A DNA stretch of 64,000 bases from Methanospirillum lacunae (lineage in GTDB: Archaea; Halobacteriota; Methanomicrobia; Methanomicrobiales; Methanospirillaceae), in the NCBI RefSeq assembly GCF_003173355.1, contig NZ_QGMY01000006.1, positions 310,001 to 374,000 on the forward strand. The letters are read 5' to 3'. Under the pieces are notes generated by a model that saw only the letters and a program-made list of their open reading frames with translations, had not been told where the DNA came from and did no database searches. A program made the translations under genes and the position numbers. This document shows, in pieces, positions 34,907 through 43,825 of the stretch (its first letter is position 1; every line of letters begins with the position of its first letter).

Positions 34907-36865
34907 ATGGACACCGCTAATAGGCGTGAACTTAAAAATCTTCTCAGGCGGGGGGAGGATGCTCTTCTTCGACATGACTACGAGCGGGCGTCAACATATT
35001 TCAGGCGGGCATACACCACAGATCCGGGAAATATTACAGCCATTACAAACCTGGGATATGTATATGCAAGAATGGGCCGATTCTCCCACGCACAGAAGTG
35101 TTTTATCACAGCATTGGATATTGATCCCGACAACCAGGTAGCAAGAAAGAACTTAAGCCTCCTGATGAGTCCGGAGAAAGAGAGACGACCGCCATCTTCA
35201 CCACAGGTGCGGGGACGGCCGGCAGAGGAGATTTTTCTCAGGTACCTCGAGTGGGGAAACCTGCAGATGAAACAAGGTAACTATTACGCTGCAATCCAGT
35301 ATTTTAAACAAGCGAGTAGAATTCATCCTGATTTTATCGAACCACATCTGAAGATCGGACTTAGTTATGAAGAACTTCAGGAATGGGCAGCTGCTGCAGG
35401 AGCTTTTACTGATGCCCTGGATATTTTTCCAAAAGACCCCATCGCACTTGAGCACTTAGATAAATGTAGGGGAATGAATAATGATGATTCTCAAAGAAAT
35501 TCAGAGAATGAAGCATCAATAGAATCATCTACCAAGGCAATGGATGAAGTCAGGCAGAAATCTGAAGAATATAATCAGCCACCAGATTTATTACAGAAGA
35601 TGGAGATGCCAACTACTTCTGACAAAACTCCATCCAAAACTGAAGATCTGGCACCGGAAAAACCTAAATCAGAAGATGATGTAATCCGGGCAATTCTTAA
35701 TCAGTACAGTGATCTTATTAGTTCGGGAAAATCTTCAGACAAAGGGCAAAAAGACCAAACCGGCGAACATATACCTGAAGAGGAAAAACCTGGAACATCA
35801 GAACCACCGGTTACGCCAGTTGTATCAAAAAAACAGCCACCGGTCAGTAGTGATGACATGGTCAGCAGTATATTGATGCAGTACCAGGATGATATTGCTG
35901 ATGAGAGTCAGTCTACATCCCCCGCTTCTGAACCTGAGTCTTCAGACAAAGGGCAAAAAAATCAGACTGGCGAACATATACCTGAAGAGGAAAAACCTGA
36001 AACGTCAGAACCACCGGTTACGCCAGTTGTGTCAAAAAAACAGCCACCGGTCAGTAGCGATGACATGGTCAGCAGTATATTGATGCAGTACCAGGATGAT
36101 ATTGCTGATGAGAGTCAGCCTACACCCCCTGCTTCTGAAACTGCGTCTTCAGAGAAGGATCAGGTACCATATACCGGCGATGCACCTTTGAGTGGAGAGA
36201 AGATGGACATAAATCAGGCACAATCCAGTGGAATCAGGGTCGATCTAAATGATAATCAGAAAGATGCTCTGCGTGAACTTGGAAACATCGGAGCATCCCA
36301 TGCAGCAACTACCCTCTCCACGATGCTGAATACCCCTATTATGCTTAATGTTCCAGAGATCAACATCACTGACTTTGAGCATATTAATACTGAAATTGCC
36401 CAGGAAAATTCTGCTATGGCCATATTTACCATGGAAGGGCAGATGGCCAAGGCAGGATATGTAATCCTGCACGTTCCCCGGGAATCAGTTGTGTTGATGA
36501 CTGGTATCATGCTGGGTATGCCTGACGATCCAGGGCGCGAACTCAACGAGATGGACGAGAGTGCTATCACTGAAATCGGAAATATCATGGTGTCAGCATT
36601 TCTGGACGGGACAGCAGAATTACTGGGAATCATTATGCTTCCCTCTCCCCCAAGAACAATATTTGACCTTCCTAAAAAAGTCTTTGACCTGATTATTGCA
36701 GAAAGTAATATTCGATATGATAATGTTGTCTTTTTCAGAACCGAACTAATCTGTGATGAACATGAACTTAATCTCAACATCTTCATGCTTCCAAACCCTC
36801 CGGTTCTTCAGGAGATCGTAAGAATGCTTGAGAAAATTATTGAAGACTCTGCACAAGGAAAATAA
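34907..36865 (+). CDS. TPR - linker - CheC fusion protein
   Basis: A 652-residue soluble protein with three parts. Residues about 5-185 form four TPR units (NITAITNLGYVYARMGRFSH, QGNYYAAIQYFKQASRIHPD and others). Residues 190-430 are a charged, Pro/Ser/Glu-rich linker with a 69-residue tandem repeat. Residues about 440-650 are a CheC-like domain with both phosphatase motifs: ELGNIGASHAATTL and EIGNIMVSAFLDG. CheC dephosphorylates CheY-P and binds CheD. The TPR part suggests docking to another protein. It is convergent with the che operon (37 bases between stops) and has its own promoter with an inverted repeat. Confidence 0.88.
   Translation: MDTANRRELKNLLRRGEDALLRHDYERASTYFRRAYTTDPGNITAITNLGYVYARMGRFSHAQKCFITALDIDPDNQVARKNLSLLMSPEKERRPPSSPQVRGRPAEEIFLRYLEWGNLQMKQGNYYAAIQYFKQASRIHPDFIEPHLKIGLSYEELQEWAAAAGAFTDALDIFPKDPIALEHLDKCRGMNNDDSQRNSENEASIESSTKAMDEVRQKSEEYNQPPDLLQKMEMPTTSDKTPSKTEDLAPEKPKSEDDVIRAILNQYSDLISSGKSSDKGQKDQTGEHIPEEEKPGTSEPPVTPVVSKKQPPVSSDDMVSSILMQYQDDIADESQSTSPASEPESSDKGQKNQTGEHIPEEEKPETSEPPVTPVVSKKQPPVSSDDMVSSILMQYQDDIADESQPTPPASETASSEKDQVPYTGDAPLSGEKMDINQAQSSGIRVDLNDNQKDALRELGNIGASHAATTLSTMLNTPIMLNVPEINITDFEHINTEIAQENSAMAIFTMEGQMAKAGYVILHVPRESVVLMTGIMLGMPDDPGRELNEMDESAITEIGNIMVSAFLDGTAELLGIIMLPSPPRTIFDLPKKVFDLIIAESNIRYDNVVFFRTELICDEHELNLNIFMLPNPPVLQEIVRMLEKIIEDSAQGK
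35732..36145 (+). repeat. Two tandem 207-bp units inside the TPR-CheC gene
   Basis: Unit 1 (35732-35938) and unit 2 (35939-36145) are nearly identical in DNA, differing at scattered positions, with a period of exactly 69 codons. Each begins SSDKGQK and ends with a helix-like segment SSDDMVSSILMQYQDDIAD. A weaker third relative, DDVIRAILNQYSDLISSG, precedes unit 1. This is recent in-frame amplification of a linker plus a short helical, possibly protein-binding, motif. Confidence 0.9.
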
Positions 36866-36902: not shown

Positions 36903-37406
36903 TTAAATTTCCCGGGTTGCTCCATCAGCCTGCCGAATAACAAGACGGCCACCCTCTCTTGGAAAATAGGTAATCGTGCGACCTACTGTCCCACCAATAT
37001 CCTCCTTTATAATTGGTATCGAATTTGCTTTGAGAAGATCACGAAGGGCATCTACATTTCGCTCGCCAATGTTAAGATTACCTGAAAAATTCTGAAACAT
37101 CGATGCACCTCCTGCAAGTTTTGCCTTTAAGGAAGAACTTTTGCACCCCTTCCCTGCAAGATTCTGTAGAAGGATAGTAACCGCAGTATCAGCATACTTT
37201 CCCTCACGCTCACCAGGTTTACCACTTGACTTAGGGAGCATAACATGGGCAAGTCCACCAATCTTTTTCTCTTCATCATGAAGGATCAACCCTACGCATG
37301 ACCCAAGACCAATAGAAGTCATCACAGTATTACCTACCGACCACTCACCAATGCCTATGATGACCAGATCTTTCTGATCCCGTGTAAATACCGGCGGCGT
37401 TGTCAT
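36903..37406 (-). CDS. cheD: Chemoreceptor glutamine deamidase CheD
   Basis: A 167-residue Che[13 protein letters not shown] holds the catalytic Cys, [11 protein letters not shown] the His, and AGGASMF and [10 protein letters not shown] are further family blocks. CheD deamidates receptor glutamines and is regulated by CheC binding. It is the last gene of the leftward che operon, 18 bases after cheA. Two CheC domains are available nearby as partners (in CheA and in the TPR fusion). Confidence 0.95.
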
Positions 37407-37424: not shown

Positions 37425-40400
37425 TTATCCAGAGGTGGAAATCACACTATCCATTCGTGCAAATAACTCATTGAGAAGCCCTTTACTGGGAAGCAGGATT
37501 ATATTTGCACTAATGTTATACTCAGCACACTGAAGTTCAGTCTTGAATAAAACCACTTCGTCCACATTTTCATCAATCTCCTGGGTTGCAATAATTGACT
37601 GAAGTGCTGCATGAGGCATGTCAATAACCATCGATGGAGGTGACGGGATCATGATAATTGAGAGCAGGGTTGCACAAGCATCAAGGAACGAGGAGGTCAT
37701 GATATTACCTATCTCATGCAGGGCACTCTTATCCATATCATCGATTTCCCTGTCAGAGGCACTCTGACCAAGCATGATGCTTGTCAGCCTGATAATTGAT
37801 TCCTTGGGAATATGTATGATAATATAACCGTTCCCAACTAGTTGCCCCTGAATCTGAAATACCACCATCGCTGCTTCGGTGTCATCCAGGTAATAGCGGA
37901 GGTTCTGAAGTTGTACCAGTATAATTTCAGGTACATGAATCGAAATGAGGGTGTTCAGTATAGTTGAGAGTGTGGTAGCTGCATGAGAAGCACCGATATT
38001 GCCTAGTTCACGCAGTTCATCAGCCTGAATATCAGTTATAAGATGCTCTCCATCAGCAATCACATTGTTCTTCATAACCTTCTTCACCCTTTTACCTGAA
38101 TTCTTCTTCGCAGATTTCTGACCAGAACCTTCCCGGAGTATCGCTTTTACATCAAGAACAGGTACAACTTCCCCGTCTCCGGGAATAGTAACCCCGCTCA
38201 CACCATCGCAGGTACCTACAAATTTCGAGAGGGGCTTAATGACAACTTCCTGCTGTCCCTCTATCAGATCAGCGATGACGGCTCCCTTCCGGTTCTGGTT
38301 CTGCAGAACCACGATGACTTCTTCGCTCTTTGACCTGCCAAACATATCATCAAGCCTGTAAAGAACGATGATCTCATCGCGCATCAGTATGCCTTCTCCA
38401 TGACCAATGTTCTGGATAGGGAAGGCAGCAAGACTTGCCACTTCTGCCACATTAGTGATGGGGATCGCACACCTGCGGTTGTTGATCCTGATCATCATCA
38501 CCATGACGATTGCCATAGTCGGTGGAAGGACAAGTTCAAACCGACTTCCCTGGCCAAATACCGACTCCAGTTTGATTGTCCCCTGGAGAGAGGCAATGGT
38601 TGTTCTGACTACATCTAGTCCGACTCCCCTGCCACTGATATCAGTGATCTTATCAGCTGTAGAGAAACCAGGAAGGAAGAGGAGATCGTTGATCTCCGAT
38701 TCAGACATGGCTGCGAGTGCCTCTTCAGTGGCTAAACCACGCTCAAGTGCTTTCTTTTTAATCTTTTCCTGGTTGATACCCGCACCATCATCCTCAATGA
38801 CGATGACCACGTTATCCTTATCACGGGAGGCAGAGAGTTTCAGAGTCCCTTTAGGATTTTTCCCATTTCGAATACGAACATCAGGAGGCTCTATCCCATG
38901 ATCGAGCCCATTTCTGATAAGGTGAAGGAGGGGATCATTGAGACCATCCATTACGCTGCGGTCAAGTTCAGTTTCACCACCTTCGACGATGAAATCAACC
39001 TCTTTCCCCTCCTTGGTAGCAATATCACGAACGGTTCGTGGAAACCTGTTGAAAATATGGTTGAGTGGAATCATCCTGATGTCCATCATCATAACCTGAA
39101 GGTCAGCCACCGACCTCCCGACCATGTTGAGAGTCTCATCCAGTTCCTTTATCTTGTATTCCTGGGCTATCTGTTCAAGTCTGCCACGGTTGATCACCAG
39201 ATCCTCAACCAGGTTCATCATGTGATCGAGACGATCAATATCAACCCTGATATTCTTGACTTCACGCTTCTTCTCAACCTTTTCTCCTGCAGAAATACGT
39301 GAAGGAGCAAGGGTTCCATTCTGGTGCTCCTCAATTCCTGATCCAGAAAGAATGGGATCTGATACATCCTGTATCAGGGAGACAGAAGAACTTTTGATAT
39401 CAGACCCTTTCAAAAATGATTTGATCCCCTCTTCAGAAAAGTCTGAACTGGTTAATTCAAAATCGAAAATTCCAGAAAAGGTACCGCTATCTTCAATGAC
39501 TTCACGCCTCGGAGAGATATTTGTAAGGGCACCGTGTGACTCAAGATTCTGCAAAAGAAGCATGGCCCTCAGATTTTTTGAGTCTACACTCGGAGAGAGC
39601 TCAACATGTATCGCATACCTGCTTGCATGTTCAAAGTCGGGTACTGGTTCCACACTTTCTTTTTTCTGTGGAGAAACCTCCTCTGACAGTGAAGATGATC
39701 TGATATCTGAAATTGCAAGGATTGTTTCTACTGCCGCTTTTCCTGCATTAGTAACAAAGGTAAGATCAATAATGCCATTAAATGAGGGATCATCTTCAAC
39801 AACAGTTCTTGATGGAGAAATTGCTGATATACTTCCAATACTCTCCAGGTTCTGAAGGATCAACATTGAGCGCAGGTTTATACTGTCCACTTCAGATGAG
39901 AGTTCAATATGAAGTTTGTACTCCGCGTTTCCTGCCTGATCATATGATTCGTATGCCGGATTTTCATACATATCCCCGGCAGGTTCAACTTCAGTTCCAG
40001 AATCAGGTATTACTGGTTCCTTCTTCTCCACTGTTGAAGGAGATGACCCGGACAACCATGCTTTTAACGCAGAGACACGCGCATCCCGATGCTCTAAAAG
40101 CCCCTCCCCACCAGCTTCGATGTCATCGATCATTGACTCGATATCATCAACACCAGCAAGCAGATCATCCATGAGAGCCTGACTCACATGCAGATTGCCA
40201 CTACGGATCTGGGAGAATACATCTTCAAGTGCATGACAGATCTCCTCCATGTGCATAAATCCCATAGAAGCAGACATACCCTTGAGTGAGTGCGCAGACC
40301 GGAAGATCTCATCAATGGCGTGAGAGTCGGTCCCCTGTTCAAGAATCAGGAGATTACTAACAATACTTTCATGATTCTCCCGCGATTCAGCAACATACAG

Positions 40401-40427
40401 ACTCCGGTATGCATCAAGATCTGACAT
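37425..40427 (-). CDS. cheA: CheA histidine kinase with duplicated N-terminal regulatory domain and C-terminal CheC domain
   Basis: A 1000-residue fusion. Residues 1-110 are an HPt domain (phospho-His 46 in FRSAHSLKGMSA). Residues about 171-248 and 272-349 are two similar copies of a ferredoxin-like, P2-type domain (ELSSEVDSINLRSMLILQNLE against ELSPSVDSKNLRAMLLLQNLE). Residues 390-460 dimerise; 460-635 are the ATPase (HLIRNGLDHG, EDDGAGIN, GRGVGLDVV); 640-767 are CheW-like. After a lysine-rich linker, residues 803-1000 are a CheC phosphatase (ELGNIGASHAATTL, EIGNIMTSSFLDA). Kinase and CheY-P phosphatase thus share one chain. It starts 4 bases after cheB. Confidence 0.95.
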   Translation of the reverse strand: MSDLDAYRSLYVAESRENHESIVSNLLILEQGTDSHAIDEIFRSAHSLKGMSASMGFMHMEEICHALEDVFSQIRSGNLHVSQALMDDLLAGVDDIESMIDDIEAGGEGLLEHRDARVSALKAWLSGSSPSTVEKKEPVIPDSGTEVEPAGDMYENPAYESYDQAGNAEYKLHIELSSEVDSINLRSMLILQNLESIGSISAISPSRTVVEDDPSFNGIIDLTFVTNAGKAAVETILAISDIRSSSLSEEVSPQKKESVEPVPDFEHASRYAIHVELSPSVDSKNLRAMLLLQNLESHGALTNISPRREVIEDSGTFSGIFDFELTSSDFSEEGIKSFLKGSDIKSSSVSLIQDVSDPILSGSGIEEHQNGTLAPSRISAGEKVEKKREVKNIRVDIDRLDHMMNLVEDLVINRGRLEQIAQEYKIKELDETLNMVGRSVADLQVMMMDIRMIPLNHIFNRFPRTVRDIATKEGKEVDFIVEGGETELDRSVMDGLNDPLLHLIRNGLDHGIEPPDVRIRNGKNPKGTLKLSASRDKDNVVIVIEDDGAGINQEKIKKKALERGLATEEALAAMSESEINDLLFLPGFSTADKITDISGRGVGLDVVRTTIASLQGTIKLESVFGQGSRFELVLPPTMAIVMVMMIRINNRRCAIPITNVAEVASLAAFPIQNIGHGEGILMRDEIIVLYRLDDMFGRSKSEEVIVVLQNQNRKGAVIADLIEGQQEVVIKPLSKFVGTCDGVSGVTIPGDGEVVPVLDVKAILREGSGQKSAKKNSGKRVKKVMKNNVIADGEHLITDIQADELRELGNIGASHAATTLSTILNTLISIHVPEIILVQLQNLRYYLDDTEAAMVVFQIQGQLVGNGYIIIHIPKESIIRLTSIMLGQSASDREIDDMDKSALHEIGNIMTSSFLDACATLLSIIMIPSPPSMVIDMPHAALQSIIATQEIDENVDEVVLFKTELQCAEYNISANIILLPSKGLLNELFARMDSVISTSG

Positions 40428-40430
40428 TCA

Positions 40431-41459
40431 TCACCCTGAGATGCTTTTAACAAAATCTTCGATCTTTCCGGGAATGTTTTTCAGAGGTAGAACATGATCA
40501 ACAGCCTCACGCTGAAGTGCAGACCTTGCCATTCCATATACCAGACAATCCTCTTGTCTGCATACAATGGTTACTCCTCCTGCTTTCTTGATGGCTTCAG
40601 TCCCTTCTCCACCATCATTACCCATCCCAGATAAGATTGCAGAGACACTCCGCCCGCCAAATACCTGTGCAGCAGAAACAAAGGTCTTGTCAACTGCCGG
40701 TTTCACGTTATGAACAGGAGGTGAATCAGCATGAACGATCTTTCCTCCCTGTATCCCACCCTTATCAAGGTATGAAGAGACAATTGTATGATATCCGGCT
40801 TTAGAGATGAAGACCATACCACGTTTGAGAATATCACCATTTTCTGTCTCTTTTATACGAAGCGGGGATATTCTATCAAGCCTGGCTGCCAGTGCTGCAG
40901 TAAATCCGCCCTTTGGCATATGCTGAGTAATAATAACCGCAGCATTTAGGTCTGCAGGCAGGTTGGAGACAACCACATCAAGCATTGGAGGCCCTCCTGC
41001 TGAAGACCCAATAAGAACGATATTTTTTGCTATCTCATCTCTCGATGCTGGTTTTGATGTTACATAGGCGATGGTGCAGATGTTTTTAATTTTTGATTTC
41101 AGTTCAGCGCCAATCTCCCGGATATTTTTAATTCCCCGGGGTTTTAGCATGAAATCATCAGCACCTAGAGACATCGCCTTCTTGGTCATTTCAGCACCTT
41201 CAGAGGTGAGAGAACTCAACATGAGAGTGCGGGGAAATGGTGAAAATTCACGTTTTCTCTCCAGCACACCGATCCCATCAAGCTTGGGCATCTCAATATC
41301 AAGCGTGATGAGATCTGGTTTTAACTCACGAATCTTCTCAAGGGCCTCTATACCATCTGAAGCAACCCCGACGACCTGAATTTCAGTGTCGTCAGCCAGC
41401 ATATCCTGTACCACTGTTCTGATGAAGAGAGAGTCGTCGATGATGAGAACCCGAATCAT
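40431..41459 (-). CDS. cheB: Chemotaxis methylesterase CheB
   Basis: A 342-residue response-regulator methylesterase. The receiver domain begins MIRVLIIDDSLFIRTVVQDM with phospho-Asp in LITLDIEMPKLDG; the esterase has IGSSAGGPPML (Ser), ITQHMPKGFTAAL-like ITQHMPKGG (His) and LSGMGNDGGEG (Asp). It demethylates and deamidates receptors when phosphorylated by CheA. ATG 41459 lies one base after the cheY stop; the frame is open to 41495 but that would overlap cheY. Confidence 0.96.
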   Translation of the reverse strand: MIRVLIIDDSLFIRTVVQDMLADDTEIQVVGVASDGIEALEKIRELKPDLITLDIEMPKLDGIGVLERKREFSPFPRTLMLSSLTSEGAEMTKKAMSLGADDFMLKPRGIKNIREIGAELKSKIKNICTIAYVTSKPASRDEIAKNIVLIGSSAGGPPMLDVVVSNLPADLNAAVIITQHMPKGGFTAALAARLDRISPLRIKETENGDILKRGMVFISKAGYHTIVSSYLDKGGIQGGKIVHADSPPVHNVKPAVDKTFVSAAQVFGGRSVSAILSGMGNDGGEGTEAIKKAGGVTIVCRQEDCLVYGMARSALQREAVDHVLPLKNIPGKIEDFVKSISG

Positions 41460-41460
41460 A

Positions 41461-41826
41461 TTAGGATGCACCAAGAACGTTGGCGATCTCCTCAAGGACT
41501 TTGGGAGCCTGGAATGGCTTTACAATGTATCCTCTGGCGCCACTTTTGATCGCCAGTTTTACCATCTGTTCCTGACCAACTGCCGTACACATAATGACTT
41601 TGGCGTTGGTATCGAGAGTCTTGATTGCTTTCAAGGCCTCAATTCCATTCATTTTTGGCATGACTACATCCATGGTAACGAGATCTGGTTTAAGATCCCG
41701 GTACTTGTTCACACCAATATCTCCATCCTCTGCCTCTCCCACAATCTCGTGTCCACCGGCAGAGAGGATATTCTTTAATAATGTCCGCATAAAGAGGGTA
41801 TCATCGACAATGAGGATTCTTCCCAT
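41461..41826 (-). CDS. cheY: Chemotaxis response regulator CheY
   Basis: A 121-residue single receiver domain. The acidic pocket is Asp8-Asp9, phospho-acceptor Asp53 (VTMDVVMPKMNG), Thr81 and Lys103 (YIVKPF). In archaea CheY-P passes the signal to the archaellum through CheF. It lies between cheF (68 bases upstream) and cheB (1 base), in the expected operon order. Confidence 0.96.
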   Translation of the reverse strand: MGRILIVDDTLFMRTLLKNILSAGGHEIVGEAEDGDIGVNKYRDLKPDLVTMDVVMPKMNGIEALKAIKTLDTNAKVIMCTAVGQEQMVKLAIKSGARGYIVKPFQAPKVLEEIANVLGAS

Positions 41827-41894: not shown

Positions 41895-42716
41895 TTATGC
41901 TGGTGGTTTCAATGCATCAGTTATGTATCTGACACCTTTTGGGGTGAGTTGAACTTCTTTACGGATCATCACCACATCAACAAGTTTCAGCTTCAGAAGA
42001 GTATCGTAGATTACATCCAGTTCTTTGGCAGAAAGACTCAACATATTTTCAATGGATTTTGTGTCCATCCCACTATAGATAAGCATAGCAACCTGGGCAG
42101 TCTGGGCATCAAGTTGATCCAGTTCTGAACCCTTCATGTCCATATCTTTGGTTGCATCACGAAGGAAATTATACAGCACCTGAAGTGTTGATAGTGGGCA
42201 AAGAACAAATGAAGTCACCACCTCACTGTTTTCGAGGTGATCAACCTTTACGACATCAAGTTTCTTATGCTGCAGTTCCCGCTTGGTCAACTCAAGGCTT
42301 GCGACCTCTTTAAGAGGAACACAGATCATCTTCTCCTGGCTCACAAACCAGATTCCAGTCTTGAGAACTGCAATAGCTCCTTTTTCCCACTTTGCATTCG
42401 TGACCAGAACCCCACCTCTGATTGCGGGCGACATAAAGTGTGCCATCAGTCGGTAAGCATTGCAGGCCATAATGATCTTTTTATTCAGAACCTGCAGAAC
42501 TTTCTCGACCGAGGCGATCTTGTATGTTTTTTCAGATTTATCTGCACCTGTTACTATCAGGATGTCTACCTGACCACGTAATTGGAGATCAACGATACTC
42601 CGGAAGGAGATCTCAAGATTATAAGGATCCTTGAGGATTAGACTATCCTTGGCTATCTCGATCTTTGATGTAACCCAGGAACCCCCTTTCTCCAATTTTA
42701 CCGGAACTTCTGCCAT
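41895..42716 (-). CDS. cheF: Archaeal taxis adaptor CheF
   Basis: A 273-residue protein of the archaeal CheF (DUF439) family: N-terminal PH-like region (KDPYNLEISFRSIVDLQLRG), a basic middle part, and a C-terminal winged-helix-like end (LSAKELDVIYDTLLKLKLVD, KEVQLTPKGVRYI). CheF links CheY-P to the archaellum motor and is specific to motile archaea. It starts 32 bases after the acidic membrane protein gene and leads the che half of the cluster. Confidence 0.9.
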   Translation of the reverse strand: MAEVPVKLEKGGSWVTSKIEIAKDSLILKDPYNLEISFRSIVDLQLRGQVDILIVTGADKSEKTYKIASVEKVLQVLNKKIIMACNAYRLMAHFMSPAIRGGVLVTNAKWEKGAIAVLKTGIWFVSQEKMICVPLKEVASLELTKRELQHKKLDVVKVDHLENSEVVTSFVLCPLSTLQVLYNFLRDATKDMDMKGSELDQLDAQTAQVAMLIYSGMDTKSIENMLSLSAKELDVIYDTLLKLKLVDVVMIRKEVQLTPKGVRYITDALKPPA

Positions 42717-42748: not shown

Positions 42749-43825
42749 TTATTTGTTCTTTGCTTTTTTAGTAATGATTTTCATGATATCTTCAAGTTCT
42801 TCTGCCAGTTCTTCGGCAGTAACATGGACATCCTTGAGATCTCTGAGGAGAACATCATCATCACGTTTCTTTAGATCACTAATATCTGCCTTGAGCGACG
42901 CAATTAGATCGTCATCACCCAGACCACCTTTACCCTGGGAGAGTTCAAACTGCTCCTCGCCACCTCCCGAGTCATCATCTCCCCCATACATATAAGGAGT
43001 CTCTTCAGACGAACTGTAAGAGGCGAGGTCACTCCCACTGATCGAATCGCCACCCTCCATGGTTGAAATGATCTCACCACCAGAGTCTGATCCGATCTCA
43101 ATAGTGCTCGAGTATATCTCATCAACCTCATCAGATGGTTCATCAGTATCAATCACCACATCCTCTTCTTCGTCACTCGTGGTGATATCCATCCTTCGAA
43201 CCTGTTCTTCAGAGGGGAGTTCCTGCATAACATCAGTATCGCCATAGGGAGTACGTACTGAATCAAATTCAGGGTTTACTGATTCCAGTTCTGCATCGAT
43301 ATCAAGACTATCATCAAGATCAAGACCATCAAGGAGATCATCTCCCAGATTATCATCATCTTTCTGAGATATGCCCGAAGATGACTCCCCGGAGTCAGAA
43401 GAATCTCCTGCTTCTTTTACAGAATCATCCTTTTTTACCTTTTTGGTAGGTTTTTCTTTCTTTTCAGTTTTTCCTCCGGTTTTTGGTAGAGAAAGATTTA
43501 CAGAAGGAAGTGACGGCATCTTTGGGAGTTTCTGAAGCAACCCTGATATGAGACCACCACCGGAACCTTTTGATGCTGTATTCTTCTCCACCTTCGATTT
43601 TGGCTTCTTTGGTTTTGGTTTTCGGTTTTTTAGTTTTATCCGTAGTTCCTTGATCAGTTCAGAGAGAATGAGCATACCGGTTGCAACCATCAGACCTAAT
43701 GCAAGCCCAATTACAACCATCATCAGGTATAGAACCGGGATATCAAATATCAGGAGAATTGAACCGCCAAGCACTATCGTAATAAAGATGAGGAGACGGC
43801 GGGTCGAATCGGTTAGTTGCATCAT
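42749..43825 (-). CDS. Acidic two-helix membrane protein between arlJ and cheF
   Basis: A 358-residue protein. Two membrane helices (about 10-28 and 32-55) are followed by a very basic segment (KNRKPKPKKPKSK), a Lys/Pro/Gly linker and some 200 highly acidic residues rich in D, E and S. The C-terminus DLKDVHVTAEELAEELEDI resembles the short conserved tail of some ArlC/D/E-type proteins. Position and C-terminus suggest an archaellum motor-complex accessory, perhaps the membrane-bound scaffold role that ArlX or ArlC/D/E has elsewhere; this is inference. It begins 2 bases before the arlJ stop region ends. Confidence 0.65.
   Translation of the reverse strand: MMQLTDSTRRLLIFITIVLGGSILLIFDIPVLYLMMVVIGLALGLMVATGMLILSELIKELRIKLKNRKPKPKKPKSKVEKNTASKGSGGGLISGLLQKLPKMPSLPSVNLSLPKTGGKTEKKEKPTKKVKKDDSVKEAGDSSDSGESSSGISQKDDDNLGDDLLDGLDLDDSLDIDAELESVNPEFDSVRTPYGDTDVMQELPSEEQVRRMDITTSDEEEDVVIDTDEPSDEVDEIYSSTIEIGSDSGGEIISTMEGGDSISGSDLASYSSSEETPYMYGGDDDSGGGEEQFELSQGKGGLGDDDLIASLKADISDLKKRDDDVLLRDLKDVHVTAEELAEELEDIMKIITKKAKNK

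Follow-up and report, generated by a model that had tools for sequence, protein, structure and literature searches.

A cheA-cheC fusion gene in Methanospirillum and three related genera, with a likely internal start for free CheC

We analysed a window of 64,000 nucleotides from Methanospirillum lacunae that carries an archaellum/chemotaxis operon in the order arlIJ-type genes, cheF, cheY, cheB, cheA-cheC and cheD. Coordinates given below are positions in the window, on the reverse strand unless stated otherwise. The operon includes cheF (41895-42716; Pfam PF04283), which encodes the archaeal adaptor to the archaellum, cheY (41461-41826; PF00072) and cheB (40431-41495; PF01339 and PF00072), and between cheF and an arlJ-like gene lies a gene for a protein of 358 amino acids without Pfam match (42749-43825). 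Next to the fusion gene in the operon is cheD (36903-37406; PF03975), which has a GGASMF motif and encodes the expected partner of CheC. The cheA-cheC gene itself (37425-40427) is an uninterrupted frame of 1000 codons. The first-pass annotation had proposed a CheC phosphatase fused to the C-terminus of the CheA kinase at 37425-38021, and our analysis agrees: these positions are codons 803-1000 plus the stop, the CheC domain of the CheA fusion, and the single frame is upheld. The whole genome contains one H-kinase_dim match, which is in the fusion gene, one CheD and 45 receptors above the Pfam cut-off, so that 45 receptors feed one CheA. All kinase at the receptor array would therefore have a CheC attached, at any rate in so far as the long chain is produced.

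The Pfam domain order of the fusion protein is Hpt, two P2 domains, H-kinase_dim, HATPase_c, CheW and CheC, the last in two stretches, and all matches exceed the curated cut-offs. The Hpt domain (P1, residues 7-101, 40125-40409; PF01627) has the phospho-histidine motif AHSLKG at residue 45. It is followed by two P2 domains for response regulator binding at about residues 166-260 and 271-349 (39381-39932; PF07194 in two stretches), a repeat also seen in orthologues. The number of P2 copies varies among the fused CheAs, with two in Methanospirillum, three in G006 and one each in G009 and G017, these being genomes of three other genera. The dimerisation domain (P3, residues 393-450, 39078-39251; PF02895) is the only match of its kind in the genome, the HATPase domain (P4, residues 498-636, 38520-38936; PF02518) contains the ATP-binding motifs, and the CheW-like domain (P5, residues 643-766, 38130-38501; PF01584) completes the kinase. 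The features by which a CheA is recognised, a phospho-histidine Hpt, a dimerisation domain, a HATPase and a CheW-like domain, are all found in this order, and by its sequence the kinase half is a complete CheA. Between P5 and CheC lies a basic linker at about residues 767-801 (38025-38129), delimited by the junction span and the charge count. It had been described as rich in lysine, which fits our count of nine Lys or Arg and three Asp or Glu among 32 residues (about 767-798).

The CheC domain covers residues 802-1000 (37428-38024) and matches PF04509 twice. A phmmer search relates it to the Thermotoga maritima CheC structures 1XKR and 2F9Z with an E-value of about 9e-23. Both motifs of the form (D/S)-x3-E-x2-N-x22-P are present, with the active-site residues E807/N810 (P833) and E905/N908 (P931). 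The predicted model of the domain, built with 33 homologues, has a pLDDT of 81.8, and its best structure matches are 1XKR (E-value 1.9e-18) and 2F9Z, then FliY, with FliM and CheX lower. The predicted fold is thus of the CheC type, not of the CheX or FliM subtype. An earlier model of P5, linker and CheC from seven sequences was poor (pLDDT 49) and was set aside.

The genome encodes three CheC proteins: the fused one, one linked to TPR repeats and one that is free. The TPR-CheC gene (34907-36865, forward strand; Pfam TPR and PF04509) is convergent with cheD, and its product keeps both catalytic sites. Of the loci read, only those of Methanospirillum and G006 have this gene, with cheD on one side and on the other a gene that we take to be pyruvoyl-dependent-decarboxylase-like. 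The free CheC is encoded outside the operon, on contig 18 of the same assembly (L105:5016-5669). The first-pass annotation had noted that the CheC motif of the fusion is almost the same as that of the TPR protein. The likeness is real, but it is the consensus of the whole CheC family and is therefore no sign of special kinship. Recent copying between the two was also considered and can be ruled out, since the TPR proteins form their own clade in the CheC tree (support 100) and the fused CheC has 57% identity with the third CheC against 47% with TPR-CheC. Among the fused proteins that have the residue in question, the catalytic Glu, Asn and Pro never vary at either half-site, and separate CheCs show the same. 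The Asp of the V-I-D-M helix, which may correspond to D149 of Bacillus, is also invariant. In some species the orthologue of the third CheC lacks parts of its first active site (Asn replaced by Asp in G024, Pro by Gln in several), and its second site is intact. The invariance of the fused motifs against these first-site losses suggests that the fused CheC is under selection for catalysis.

For the distribution of the fusion we searched its CheC region across 232 genomes of the order and read the junction between cheA and cheC in more than 70 loci. No Methanospirillum locus covering the junction has a stop codon in it, independent assemblies and single-contig genomes included, and it is also open in G006, G009 and G017, single genomes from three further genera of the same family. 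A stop codon or frameshift between the domains in other strains, which the first-pass annotation had named as evidence that would speak against the fusion, was found at none of the junctions read in the genus. At all other junctions read across the order, cheA has its own stop and the start of cheC lies no more than a few codons away, frequently in frame with cheA. The search had listed open frames >850 in many further genomes, but these can be ruled out as fusions because the junctions read carry stops. Outside the order, a phylum-wide search limited to strong full-length matches (E-value 1e-60), which a very diverged fusion could escape, gave no fusion.

The fused lineages make up one side of a single branch with support 98/98 in a tree of the CheA core, CheB, CheY, CheF and CheD from 35 genomes, from which CheC was left out. 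On this phylogeny the fusion has a single origin and has been kept since, and several independent fusions are unneeded. In a tree of the CheC domain alone the fused set is not one group; this tree is short, has long branches such as that of G006, and includes paralogues. The span from the last P5 strand to the first CheC catalytic helix, measured with the same script, is 49-53 codons in fused genes versus 26-34 in unfused ones, and 46 codons by eye in G017. From this longer span it follows that the fusion brought an added basic linker of about 20 residues, whose length within the genus varies only by whole codons. In many relatives of one genus (g5; L081, L087, L140-L144 and others) the stop of cheA is exactly in frame with cheC, and where it was read the TAG runs into the Shine-Dalgarno sequence of cheC (TAGGAG or TAGGTG). 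With the genes arranged in this way, one substitution could fuse them.

The linker of the fusion also contains a putative internal translation start (38073-38090), identified by duplex energy and conservation. It consists of the ATG of codon 785 (38073-38075) and a Shine-Dalgarno-like AGGGTGA (38084-38090). Pairing with the 16S tail is predicted at -8.5 kcal/mol, stronger than at any other of the gene's 32 internal ATGs; real gene starts in the window span energies that include this value, and of 267 internal ATGs about 95% pair less strongly. In all eight Methanospirillum orthologues this place, give or take one codon, has a start codon with a Shine-Dalgarno energy of -6 or lower, and there is no other such place in the gene. 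Of 37 conserved Arg columns, R780 alone has an identical codon throughout, AGG in eight of eight, and V781 is GTG in seven of eight, while the mean synonymous difference of shared codons among the orthologues is 52%. Two further species keep the Shine-Dalgarno sequence despite residue changes (Lys for Arg in L117, a shifted Gly-Val in L116), and with these the start and its Shine-Dalgarno sequence are kept in ten of ten distinct Methanospirillum sequences. When the linkers were randomly recoded with synonymous codons, following the genes' own codon use, an equally strong Shine-Dalgarno sequence arose in 3-26% of draws per species. Part of the signal therefore stems from the R-V-K-K residues, and the case for the internal start rests on its conservation rather than on its strength.

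The other three genera differ in this respect. In G017 the ancestral cheC start still has its ATG, with a Shine-Dalgarno energy of -8.5, G009 has only a weak Shine-Dalgarno sequence, and the linker of G006 contains no ATG, GTG or TTG, so that the fusion alone can suffice there. A second product is thus likely in Methanospirillum and not universal in the fused clade. Internal initiation around codon 785 had already been raised in the first-pass annotation. The Shine-Dalgarno sequence and its conservation lend strong support to a possible second product of this kind; a cheC product from internal initiation only is very unlikely. The most likely output in Methanospirillum, judged from the gene and its orthologues, is the fused CheA-CheC plus a free CheC started internally, and the earlier statement that one chain carries both kinase and phosphatase may therefore be incomplete as an account of the gene's products. 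In archaea, Cas11b is a known example of an internal in-frame start through which two proteins come from one gene (PMC11899642).

These observations can be brought together in the following explanation, which as a whole we think is rather probable. Adjacent cheA and cheC genes would have undergone a single fusion, in the ancestor that Methanospirillum shares with the three other genera, by loss of a stop codon and gain of about 20 residues of flexible basic linker. The product would be a complete CheA with CheC attached C-terminal to the receptor-coupling P5 domain, which would place CheC beside the receptors and CheW. Each kinase dimer at the array would then bring two CheC domains and with them four phosphatase sites. 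We infer that the tethered CheC could strip phosphate from CheY-P at its source, and that it could bind CheD in a CheY-P-dependent manner, as in Bacillus, beside the receptors on which CheD acts. This binding at the array would close a fast feedback on kinase activity, with a stoichiometry fixed by the tether. The start at codon 785 would additionally let the same message yield a free CheC some 216 residues long and would so create two pools of CheC in Methanospirillum, one bound to the array and one mobile, the latter with the cytoplasm or the archaellum as its site of action. Such a gene might set the ratio of array-bound to mobile phosphatase, with kinase, local phosphatase and CheD feedback, and global phosphatase balanced by translation of a single message, an idea to which we give slightly less than an even chance.

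What the tethered domain does for signalling can be considered in two ways. The first-pass annotation expected kinase-phosphatase coupling to sharpen the local CheY-P signal at receptor arrays. This may be one outcome; according to modelling of E. coli, where the phosphatase is placed has different effects in different regimes (PMC2673030). By analogy with Bacillus subtilis, CheD feedback is at least as likely, because in that species CheC catalysis matters little for taxis and CheD binding matters much. CheY-P raises the affinity of CheC for CheD more than seven-fold, the CheC-D149K mutant fails in taxis despite normal dephosphorylation, and it is binding, not catalysis, that carries the phenotype (PMC3513319). 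The same study ties a Met-Phe pair in CheD to CheC binding and describes it as a mark of species that contain CheC (PMC3513319). All CheDs of fused lineages that were read have GGASMF or GGAAMF and thus keep this pair.

Other explanations have to be weighed against this one. An assembly or sequencing error that joined two genes would need to be only one error, as cheA and cheC lie one in-frame stop apart in related genera. The open junction, however, occurs in ten distinct Methanospirillum sequences and in three more genera, in independent isolate and metagenome assemblies, and the open junctions differ in codons and linker lengths and form a clade. The idea of an artefact is refuted by these comparative data and can practically be dismissed. 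It is also very unlikely that function resides in internally started free CheC, with the long chain a tolerated read-through of little importance. In favour of this reading are the ancestral state, which is separate proteins, and the strong, conserved internal Shine-Dalgarno sequence and start. But the stop codon is missing in all four genera across deep divergence, the linker grew by about 20 residues instead of decaying and within the genus shifts by whole codons only, and G006 has no standard start from which a free CheC could be made.

The opposite possibility, that the fusion chain is the only product, that the start signal is a by-product of a linker rich in Arg, Val and Lys, and that CheC acts only when tethered, seems unlikely to us for Methanospirillum. 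G006 shows that the fusion alone must serve in at least one lineage, the recoding shows that an equally strong Shine-Dalgarno sequence can arise from the residues, and the two further CheC proteins in genomes with the fusion could supply a mobile pool. Against it are the position of the start signal, the sole conserved place of its kind in 1000 codons, and its persistence through amino-acid replacements around it. A further question is what the tethered CheC does, whether one or two products are made. It might mainly be a switch that reads CheY-P and draws CheD away from the receptors, with catalysis incidental, or it might act on CheB-P instead of CheY-P. The Bacillus results above are in line with the switch, and the binding of CheB by CheC1 in Halobacterium, where CheC and CheD have no agreed role (PMC3579733), with the action on CheB-P; the fusion gene is flanked by both cheD and cheB. 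The catalytic motifs, which are invariant in the fused set and partly lost at the first site in the third CheC, are more difficult to explain in this way, and we regard it as somewhat unlikely. We prefer the tethered phosphatase with a CheD loop, together with free CheC from codon 785.

In E. coli, CheA-short is the product of an internal start within cheA. The gene thus gives a long and a short CheA, and the phosphatase CheZ binds CheA-short (PMC2673030). As in the fusion proposed here, a phosphatase is placed beside the kinase and one cheA gene has two products, but CheZ is unrelated to CheC and is bound non-covalently, and the short product is a CheA where here it would be the phosphatase. 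A bifunctional kinase-phosphatase is also known from Rhodobacter (Cereibacter) sphaeroides, where CheA3 is described as one array CheA chain engaged in both phosphorylation and dephosphorylation of its response regulator (PMC2924250, PMC6829392). According to these descriptions it differs in having no recognised CheC domain and another phosphatase region, and in being phosphorylated only with CheA4 (PMC6829392, PMC10782961).

The closest known case is bacterial. The main text of Berry, Andrianova and Zhulin (2023; PMC10782961) describes CheA-CheC/CheX fusions in the F1 class CheAs of Leptospirae, suggests a dual role for them and names Leptospirae only. Like the archaeal fusion, these join a CheC/CheX phosphatase domain and a CheA kinase in one chain. 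The fusion of the Methanospirillum clade is found in methanogenic archaea and can be traced to adjacent cheA and cheC genes of its own order, which argues for an origin independent of the Leptospirae fusion. Its direct ancestor state is the cheF-cheY-cheB-cheA-cheC-cheD operon of other Methanomicrobiales, which has the same gene order but separate cheA and cheC, with a stop and an own start of cheC. Separate CheCs of the archaeal and Bacillus type, such as that of T. maritima (1XKR, 2F9Z), likewise share the fold, the two E-x-x-N sites and an adjoining cheD, but are free where this one is joined to CheA. In the literature we found no description of an archaeal CheA-CheC fusion or of its conserved internal start; the main text of PMC10782961 has no archaeal case, and the JF1 genome paper gives chemotaxis gene counts only. 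The kind of protein, a CheA-CheC/CheX fusion, is known, and the archaeal variant with its own origin and internal start is new.

Chemotaxis research has long asked where the CheY-P phosphatase sits with respect to the kinase. Here one CheC per CheA is hard-wired in a genome whose only CheA serves 45 receptors, and the arrangement has been kept across four genera. It offers a natural test of an array-tethered phosphatase and CheD feedback, for which close relatives with separate genes could be used as controls. The conserved internal start would also be a way for a gene fusion to retain a free protein.

In the neighbouring cheB, the longest frame (40431-41495) opens with a TTG that lies within cheY. 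The true start is probably an in-frame ATG about 11 codons downstream, at MIRVLIIDDS, as in most relatives.
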